From positions 1 through 5,997 of the forward strand of contig DAOVMD010000211.1 in NCBI GenBank assembly GCA_030630935.1: 5,997 nucleotides of DNA, given 5' to 3'. The DNA comes from Candidatus Mcinerneyibacteriota bacterium. Its GTDB lineage: Bacteria > AUK180 > JAQVHJ01. Below, piece by piece: positions 966 to 5,435 of the stretch (positions are counted from its first letter, which is position 1; every line of letters starts with the position of its first letter). The translations under genes and the position numbers were made by a program. Under the pieces are notes generated by a model. That model was not told the DNA's origin and made no database searches. It saw only the letters and a program-made list of their open reading frames with translations.

Positions 966-3900
966 AATTAACGAATCCGATTCAGTTGAAAACACAATGA
1001 TTTCCTTAATCCGGGATATGAGTTGGGATTATCGGGATTGTTATAGTGAATCATTTGGTAAGAATGATATATTTGATATTGAGCGTGGGCTTGAGAACCT
1101 GGTTCTCAGGAGTACGAGTTCGGATGTTGTACTTGCCCCGATTTTAATGTATTATCTTTTGAAGTGCAATCTTGATTTGGACGATGATGCGATTGCAGAT
1201 GCAATTGAAGAGATTACACGGGACAGAAGTTCAATGAACCCGGTCTCTGCAAATCAGGAGATTTATAAATTACTCCGTGAGGGTGTAAAAGTTAAAGTTA
1301 AGAATGAATTAGGTGAGTTGGTTGATAAGAAGGTTAAGGTTATCGATTTCGAGAATCCGGAGAATAATCATTTTCTGTTATGTTCACAGTTCTCTGTTAC
1401 AGGTGAAATATATTCAAAGCGTTGTGACCTTATCGGATTTGTGAACGGCATCCCATTAATTTTATTTGAATTGAAATCACCGAAGAAACATCTTGCAGAG
1501 GCTTATTATAAAAACATACTTGATTATAAAGAAACCATACCGCAGATTTTCTGGTATAATGCGTTGATAGTTCTATCAAAAGGAGTTAAGACAAAAGTAG
1601 GAACAATCAGCAGTAAGTATGAGCACTTTAATGAGTGGAAGATTTTGAAAAGTCAAGAAAGAGATTGCCACGCTCAGACAGATGCTGAACTTAAAATATC
1701 AGCTAAAGAAAAAGAACAAAATTATGTCATTGCGAGAAGCGAAGCGACGCGGCAATCTCAAAAGGATAACCCAGTTACAAGTTCCCTCGAAATCACAATA
1801 AACGAGATTTTCAGAAAAGAAAACCTCTTAGATATCTTTGAGAATTTTATTTTATTCCATGATACACAAGGGAGTATTAGTAAAATCGCAGCAAAGTATC
1901 ATCAGTATTATGGTGTGAATGATGCAATTGAAGAGTTCCTTGAGAAACAGAAAACAGATGGGCGTCTTGGTGTCTTCTGGCATACTCAAGGTGCAGGAAA
2001 GAGTTTCTCTATGATATTTTTCTCGCAGAAAATATTACGAAAAATCTATGGGAATTATACATTTGTAATTGTGACTGATAGACGGTCTCTCGATAAACAG
2101 ATCTATGGAAACTTTGCTTCATGTGGTGCAGTTACAGAGAAGAAAGTTCATGCCACAAACTGTAATCACTTAAAGAGATTATTAAAAGAAGACCATCGAA
2201 ATATTTTTACACTCATTCAAAAGTTCCAGGAAGAAGAGGGTAAGGAATTTCCAGTATTATCAGAGAGAGACGACATCATAGTCATCACTGATGAGTCACA
2301 TCGATCGCAATATGAAGTTTTGGCGATGAATATGAGAACCGCTTTACCCAATGCATCATTCATTGCATTTACCGGTACACCTCTTATTGTCGGGGAAGAG
2401 AAGACGAGAGAAGTCTTTGGTGAATATGTAAGCATTTATAATTTCAAACAATCCATTGACGATGGGGCAACCTTACCTATTTATTATGAAAAGCGAAAAC
2501 CCGAAGTTAATATTATCAATGACCAGATTAACCAGGAGTTCTATGATATTATAAAAGATAAGAACCTTGAAGAGGAAGAAGAAGAGAAACTCGAAACCTT
2601 ATTTGCAAAGAAATATTACTTGATAACAGATGATGACAGGTTAGAGATTATTGCTGAAGATATCGTGAATCATTTTATGAACCGTGGTTATATGGGAAAG
2701 GCAATGGTCGTCTGTATTGATAAAGTTACAACAGTAAAGATGTATGATAAAGTGAAGAAATACTGGGTGAAGTACATTGAGAATAAAAATAGATTGCCAC
2801 GTCATTCCATTCCTCGCAATGACAAAGAAAATTTAATTGAGAATTCTTGTTTTAATTCTGTTGATGAAATAATTAATTATATGAAAGAGACTGAGATGTA
2901 TGTAGTAGTGAGTGAAGAACAGTTTGAAGAGAAAAAGTTCAAGGATAAAGGTTTAGATATCAGATTTCACAGGCAGCAGATGCAGATCAATGATTTGGAT
3001 ACAAGGTTTAAGGAACCAACTGATCCGTTTAGAATTGTTTTTGTCTGTGCAATGTGGATGACCGGTTTTGATGCGAAGTCACTTTCCACAATGTATTTAG
3101 ATAAACCACTCGTGAACCATAATCTAATGCAGTCCATCGCAAGAGTAAACAGAGTATATGGTGATAAATCCAATGGTATAATTGTAGATTATATCGGGAT
3201 ATTTGATAACCTGAAGAAAGCACTTGCAGTTTATGGCTCTGACCCAAGCGGTGTGATTCAACCGGGGGAGATGCCAGTCCAACCGAAGATAAAATTAATT
3301 GAACAATTACGAGAAATTCAGATACACTTATTTCAAGTTTTTAAAGATCATCAAATCGATTTAGAAAGATTATATCATATTAACGGACTCGAACTGATAC
3401 GCGAGTTGGAAAAAACTTCTGATAAGATACTGTCTGACAAGGATTTCAAGAAAGAGTTTAAGGAAATATCAAACCGAATAATGAAATTATTCAAGATGAT
3501 TCTTCCTGATATAACAGCAAATGAATTTCTGAGATTGATTTCAACGATTAAACTATTAAGAAATATAATCCTTGAATCAACTATAACTGATCCTGAGTTA
3601 AAAGGAAAAATTGAAGACCTCTTAGAAAAGTCAATTGATGCCGAGAAAGTTAAGCAGCCATTGTTCCCGGATTTTCAAATAGATTTAACAAAGCTTGACT
3701 TCAGTATGTTAAAGAAAAGCTTTATAGAAGGTCGGAGATTTCTGACTGCTGATAGATTAAGAAGAGCATTAGAAGATAAAGTAAAGAAGATGCTTGAACA
3801 GAATAAGTTCCGGGTAGAATTATATGAGAAGCTTCTAAGAATTATTGAAGAATATAATTCAGGAGCTGCCGATATAGAAAAGTATTTTAAAGACTTGACT

Positions 3901-4328: not shown

Positions 4329-4549
4329 TTTAGCGGGAATGACGCAGTCGCTGTGCTCTATCTCAATGACATTACCCGGGGCTCTTTGCATTTGAGCTGA
4401 AGCTCTTTCTAAATAAAAGGGGGGTTAAAACCCAGGTCTACGAACCATGGAAAAAAGCAATAAATGGTTTTGTAATATAAGACTCAATAAAATTACCAAA
4501 TGATTCAACATGGTTTTAAGTCAAAGAATTAATAGATGAAAAGAGTTTA

Positions 4550-4653
4550 AAATATGGTGCCGGCCAGTAGTACTACTCCCCGCACCTCATGGGGATACGG
4601 GACACTGCACTTTGTTCGAGTACTCTACGCGGATATTATACTTATATTAATAA
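4550..4653. repeat. GGTGCC/GTAGTACTAC repeat, copy 1 (with 31-nt core)
   Basis: This is the first of three related copies. The order of parts is ATGGTGCCGGCC, a 12-nt perfect palindrome AGTAGTACTACT (4566-4577), a 31-nt GC-rich core (4578-4608, CCCCGCACC...GGGGATACGGGACAC), ACTTTGTTCGAGTACTCT, CGCGG, and an AT-rich tail ending ACTTATATTAATA. Copy 2 shares both flanks, including AAATATGGTGCC on the left and ACTTATATTAATA on the right, so the element extends over about 100 nt. The element has no coding potential. Confidence 0.8.
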
Positions 4654-4700
4654 TTATTAATATATTATTTCTTCGGGGATTATTTAAAAGATAACTAAAA

Positions 4701-4740
4701 CGCAAATCCGACGCAAATCCGACACAAATCCGAAGCAAAA
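4701..4740. repeat. Tandem repeat, 11-nt unit CGCAAATCCGA, about 3.6 copies
   Basis: Two perfect units (4701-4711, 4712-4722) are followed by CACAAATCCGA (4723-4733) and a degenerate partial AGCAAAA (4734-4740). The tandem lies between copies 1 and 2 of the GGTGCC element. It may be a replication-slippage array or a set of protein binding sites. The number of units is small and no function can be assigned. Confidence 0.85.
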
Positions 4741-4753
4741 ACAAGACAAGATT

Positions 4754-4826
4754 AAATATGGTGCCGACCTGTAGTACTACTTACTTTGTTCGAGTATTCT
4801 GCGCGGTTCTTATACTTATATTAATA
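4754..4826. repeat. GGTGCC/GTAGTACTAC repeat, copy 2 (lacks the 31-nt core)
   Basis: It is a direct repeat of copy 1: AAATATGGTGCCGACCT, palindrome GTAGTACTAC (4771-4780), then directly ACTTTGTTCGAGTATTCT, GCGCGG and ACTTATATTAATA. The 31-nt core found in copies 1 and 3 is absent, and a single T stands at the junction (4782 region). Flanks match copy 1 almost base for base, so this is a core-less form and not an unrelated element. Confidence 0.8.
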
Positions 4827-4864
4827 TTTTTAAATGTATTCTTTGAACCAGAGCTTAAATAATG

Positions 4865-4914: not shown

Positions 4915-4966
4915 TTTATCCTGTAGGGATAAAGCGATAGTAGCCCCGCAATTTATTGCGGGGTTA
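4915..4966 (+). repeat. Double-hairpin repeat, forward copy (E1)
   Basis: Two hairpins in tandem. The first is TTTATCC/GGATAAA with loop TGTAG (4915-4933). The second is CCCCGCAA/TTGCGGGG with loop TTTA (4944-4963), extendable by TAG/TTA with one wobble. An inverted, roughly 80% identical copy lies at 5194-5246. Despite the strong GC-rich stem, it is followed by TTAGAATG and not a U-run, so I do not call it a terminator. Confidence 0.75.
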
Positions 4967-5127: not shown

Positions 5128-5156
5128 CTGCAGATGCAATGGAGTTGCGTCTGCAG
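5128..5156. repeat. 12-bp hairpin, CTGCAGATGCAA/TTGCGTCTGCAG
   Basis: The stem runs 5128-5139 against 5145-5156 with one G-U wobble and the loop TGGAG. It abuts the next hairpin at 5157 with no gap. It is one of the strongest stems in the window, but no U-tract follows. Confidence 0.65.
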
Positions 5157-5173
5157 CTGTCCCTACGGGACAG
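5157..5173. repeat. Hairpin CTGTCCC-TAC-GGGACAG
   Basis: A perfect 7-bp stem with loop TAC. The same TGTCCCTACGGGACA word recurs at 5229-5243 inside the E2 copy, and a diverged form is in E1 (4917-4931). It is therefore a reused module of the local repeat family. Confidence 0.65.
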
Positions 5174-5193
5174 TGTGTGTTGTGGGGGATATC

Positions 5194-5246
5194 TATACCC
5201 AGCAATAAATTGCTGGGCTATTATCAGTTGTCCCTACGGGACAATG
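5194..5246 (-). repeat. Double-hairpin repeat, inverted copy (E2)
   Basis: Read on the minus strand it runs TTGTCCC-GTA-GGGACAA (5228-5244), a GATAATAG spacer, then CCCAGCAA-TTTA-TTGCTGGG (5198-5217). It aligns with E1 in the same order of parts at roughly 80% identity. The stem changes are paired: C-G in E1 (CCCCGCAA/TTGCGGGG) becomes A-T in E2 (CCCAGCAA/TTGCTGGG), so the stem is preserved. Confidence 0.75.
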
Positions 5247-5266
5247 TGGAATTAGTTATTGAAATA

Positions 5267-5348
5267 AGGTGCCAACCTGTAGTACTACTCCCCGCACCGC
5301 ATGGGGATACGGGACACCGCACTTTGTTCGAGTACTCTGCGCAGCTCT
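5267..5348. repeat. GGTGCC/GTAGTACTAC repeat, copy 3 (with 31-nt core)
   Basis: AAGGTGCCAACCT, palindrome GTAGTACTAC (5279-5288), 31-nt core (5290-5320), ACTTTGTTCGAGTACTCT and GCGCAG follow in the same order as copy 1. Within the core, CACCGCA occurs twice, 20 nt apart (5295-5301 and 5315-5321). The AT-rich outer flanks shared by copies 1 and 2 are missing, so this copy marks the conserved element more tightly. Confidence 0.8.
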
Positions 5349-5435
5349 TACTTCTTTGTTGAATAATTTTCATATGTTGCTGTGATTATAGACAAAATCA
5401 ATAAATAATAGAGATTTTTTTAAAAATTTTAATTA

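Follow-up and report, generated by a model that had tools for sequence, protein, structure and literature searches.

How a dispersed palindromic repeat comes to be translated within a restriction enzyme, and what exactly was inserted there, are the questions raised by the hsdR gene in the DNA analyzed here, a stretch of 5,997 nucleotides from Candidatus Mcinerneyibacteriota bacterium (contig DAOVMD010000211.1), referred to as the window. The encoded protein carries an HSDR_N nuclease domain (residues 5-222) and a SWI2_SNF2 motor domain (residues 316-541) along with ResIII, T1R_D3-like and T1RH-like_C domains. The columns of the nuclease residues D158, E172 and K174 and of the motor residues G346, G348, K349, D446, E447 and H449 are invariant among 20 sequences; with nuclease and SWI2/SNF2 motor present and their motifs intact, the protein is a type I HsdR. 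An earlier note on this DNA had described an in-frame element of 99 bp or 33 codons with inverted ends (1661-1759). Its basic observations agree with the sequence: the ends at 1661-1672 (GAGATTGCCACG) and 1748-1759 (CGCGGCAATCTC) match at 11 of 12 positions, the stretch is 99 bp long, the HsdR frame remains open throughout, and the location between HSDR_N and SWI2_SNF2 is indeed the linker between nuclease and translocase (site 1). A second complete copy of the repeat later in the same gene (site 2) had not been part of that account (Table 1).

Table 1 Features of hsdR and of the repeat copies within it
Feature	Position in window	Strand	Remarks
hsdR, type I restriction enzyme R subunit, 1093 aa	955..4236	+	intact, open throughout
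Site 1, orphan end, probably of a second, inverted, decayed copy	1661..1672	-	agrees with the CGTGGCAATCTC end of the family; lacks the core half
Site 1, spacer within the extra segment; no demonstrable repetition	1673..1725	.	other matches in the genome are short and A-rich
Site 1, complete palindromic repeat, translated VIARSEATRQS	1726..1758	+	exact core; model match 1726-1759, 47.7 bits
Site 2, second complete copy, inverted, in frame, translated RLPRHSIPRND	2791..2823	-	model match 2790-2823, 47.3 bits

Aligned copies of the repeat define a palindrome with the consensus GTCATTGCGAG-loop-CGYGGCAATCT and a variable inner hairpin. The exact core GTCATTGCGAG occurs 88 times in the whole genome, while the reversed core, used as a control, does not occur at all; a covariance model of the family finds 142 matches at E<=1. 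Copies are 27-52 bp long with peaks at 33, 35 and 41 bp, end in GGCAATCT and enclose loops of varying length. The outer stem is invariant and thus uninformative on compensating changes. The inner arms, on the other hand, are complementary to a degree of 0.591, as compared to a mean of 0.501 and a maximum of 0.548 when arms were swapped between copies of equal length (n=1000), and contain 21 double-change cells versus 8.4 after shuffling. Since the inner arms covary more strongly than swapped arms, the repeat is a hairpin that is maintained through compensating changes. When 33-bp copies are folded singly as RNA, the resulting hairpin is often not that of the covariance model. The GTCATTGCGAG pattern was detected in 24 of 193 genomes searched; the only one of these 193 from the same family, G001, has 40 matches, and outside G001 the pattern is combined with other loops.

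Evidence for insertion comes from aligning HsdR with 33 homologues, of which 32 extend across site 1 and are counted there. At site 1, 36-37 residues are absent in 18 of the 32 and 24-34 in the remainder; the smaller gaps derive mostly from a group of homologues with 8-12 residues of their own, as is the case for some Treponema and clostridial sequences, in which these residues are different ones. The six closest homologues counted each lack 36 residues. At site 2, nine residues are absent in 22 of 32 homologues and eleven in the closest one, while a few sequences differ widely. The homologues thus lack the residues and the repeat is anything but single-copy, which bears out the central proposal of the earlier note that a genome-dispersed repeat has become protein-coding. 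The closest homologue shares 54% identity over its best segment, no empty hsdR allele was found among the homologues, and the viral contigs searched contain only distant HsdR homologues. With relatives this distant, the polarity of the change is a matter of parsimony, and polarity as well as the exact edges (36 versus 33 residues) are read from outgroups of 54% identity at most. These outgroups support the view that the extra residues at both sites are insertions rather than losses.

What is the inserted unit at site 1? When the genome was searched with positions 1640-1780, 47 places were found, nearly all of which match only the right third, and no second copy of 1661-1724 exists in the whole genome. 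The repeated unit is therefore about 33 bp long, corresponding roughly to 1726-1758, and not the 99 bp previously assumed. The two checks that had been proposed came out accordingly: the alignment confirms an absence at site 1, the length of which is about 36 and not 33 residues, and the genome search confirms many copies of the 1726-1759 unit and none of the full 99 bp elsewhere. The left arm calls for an explanation of its own. Just two of the 88 exact-core copies, that of the window among them, are preceded by an inverted arm at a distance of up to 90 bp, and a match of this kind arose in only 3 of 20,000 random 100-base draws at the base composition of the open reading frame. Furthermore, 4 of 39 such ends in the loci examined lack a core, and the end at 1661-1672 is among these four. 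Given the rarity of upstream arms, the improbability of a chance match and the three other core-less ends, the left arm is most plausibly the end that is left of a second copy, an inverted partner that has otherwise decayed. Alternatively, the 99 bp could be a single composite, MITE-like mobile element that was inserted as a whole. Ends matching at 11 of 12 positions, a length divisible by three and a left arm that is hardly due to chance would all fit; we nevertheless consider such an element highly improbable, because the genome does not contain 1661-1724 a second time, an upstream inverted arm is missing in 86 of 88 copies and the gap in the homologues spans 36 rather than 33 residues.

The repeat copies avoid genes and are mostly intergenic. 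At least 40 open codons on both sides were present for 6 of 88 copies compared with 54.5% of positions drawn at random from these loci, a control that takes no account of the many copies near contig ends, whose flanks are shortened by this location. At least 100 open codons on both sides were seen for three of the 133 model matches examined, namely the two copies in hsdR and C153:7914-7941, which resides in the gene for a type IIG restriction enzyme (Eco57I/TaqI_C). All three clearly intragenic copies are thus located in restriction genes.

We propose, with a probability of about 85%, that short REP-like palindromes spread in this genome mostly between genes and that the copies in hsdR survived because they had landed in frame in segments that tolerate extra length. 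Site 1, the linker between nuclease and motor, would have received one copy that is still intact and an inverted partner of which a remnant is left, while site 2 is probably a loop further along the motor region. HsdR would be read through the repeats and, with its catalytic motifs kept, may well still be a working enzyme; whether the insert in the linker alters the coupling of cleavage to translocation, as the earlier note considered, is a matter on which the data favor neither side. An AlphaFold2 model of HsdR has a mean pLDDT of 71.9, with values below 50 at residues 231-258, 261-274 and 617-631, that is for most of both insert sites, and also in unrelated stretches such as 700-751. Because the alignment has no depth at the inserts and the model is of poor quality elsewhere too, these values are compatible with flexible inserts and weakly suggest them, without amounting to proof.

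As a dispersed palindrome of 20-40 bp that forms a compensated hairpin and is predominantly extragenic, the repeat is REP-like in the broad sense. In-frame palindromes as such are already established: the main text of a REP survey (PMC3733652) documents GTAG and CGTC REPs inside genes, describes dimers that encode 20-30 residues as well as genes struck twice, and assigns the Rickettsia conorii elements RPE-4 and RPE-6 to the CGTC class of short palindromes. Like the family studied here, the CGTC REPs including RPE-4 and RPE-6 are described there as short, numerous, mostly intergenic and in some cases in frame, sometimes twice per gene, and no transposase flanked by the repeat was found for them (PMC3733652). 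The statement in the earlier note that the repeat is unrelated to the Rickettsia elements was hence too strong, as RPE-4 and RPE-6 belong to a similarly built class (PMC3733652), although the CGTC tag itself is missing here. None of the 88 copies has an unpaired CGTC end tag, the base before GTC being T in 84, G in four and C in none; instead of a CCA-type tail and a loop of 4-5 bp, the copies have GGCAATCT ends and variable loops. In addition, CGTC REPs are mostly head-to-head dimers in the survey's account, while the copies in this genome are mostly single and more variable in loop length (PMC3733652). RPE-1 is likewise a palindrome translated in frame within genes, and its description in the same text sets it apart as a longer insertion (PMC3733652). 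GTAG REPs, which are associated with RAYT transposases, share the short hairpin and known intragenic cases. In contrast to these, no GTAG tag is present in the aligned copies, and none of the three Y1_Tnp genes of the genome has the repeat core within the surrounding DNA examined. The word "restriction" does not occur in the main text of the survey (PMC3733652), and searching the literature for the core sequence or for HsdR turned up nothing relevant. A type I and a type IIG restriction enzyme would join the proteins with translated palindromic repeats.

In the type IIG enzyme of this genome, the repeat lies in the linker that connects the TVG motif with the ACGSG motif. This linker comprises 16-23 residues in 24 of 31 orthologues and is longer in seven, i.e., in those of G373, G135, G026, G001 and this genome (G000) and in two paralogues of G046 (linker loci L222 (G000:C153), L228, L231, L230, L258 and L249). 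The orthologue of G001 has two linker copies of the GTCATTGCGAG superfamily, to which the repeat in the enzyme of this genome belongs as well. The linker in G026 contains two copies of another palindrome, GTCATTCC-GCGAA-GC-GGAATCC, which as a pattern is matched 15 times in G026 but not once in G000, G001 or G046; the linkers of G046 and G135 contain hairpin-like DNA. With the GTCATTGCGAG superfamily in two genomes and a different palindrome in a third, at least two families of translated palindromes have entered the same linker in different genomes. What is seen here is an event of a known kind that recurs, in this genome and in relatives, at the same linker of another defence enzyme. The repeats may even be selected for, for instance because they switch or tune restriction through linker length or an mRNA hairpin, as could be surmised from the confinement of all three clear intragenic copies to restriction genes and from different palindromes at the same type IIG linker. 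Yet only two genes are concerned, the pattern was noticed afterwards, and tolerance of dispensable defence genes accounts for it equally, which makes selection very unlikely in our view. The wider notion that any palindrome resident in a genome lands repeatedly in the interdomain linkers of its restriction enzymes, with the resulting length changes tuning restriction, is improbable. Regardless of this, a linker that differs in its repeats from genome to genome may serve as a natural test of how much length an interdomain linker tolerates.

Some further observations concern the surroundings of these genes. A near copy of the type IIG gene with 93% identity (L237, G000:C186:647-2059) breaks at the position of the repeat and continues as an inverted copy, which may reflect a rearrangement or an assembly error. 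No relative of the type IIG enzyme was found in the viral contigs searched. A further HsdR is encoded at a locus (L223, G000:C254) that also has an Abi_2 gene (PF07751), with repeats of the family in the gaps adjoining the latter. In the window itself, a longer intergenic repeat around GGTGCC...GTAGTACTACT is represented by three partial copies downstream of hsdR (4547-4666, 4754-4844 and 5259-5378), an 11-bp unit, ACGCAAATCCG, is repeated in tandem at 4700-4743, and the short palindromes CCCCGCAATTTATTGCGGGG and GTCCCTACGGGAC at 4936-4964 and 5154-5248 apparently represent additional repeat families.
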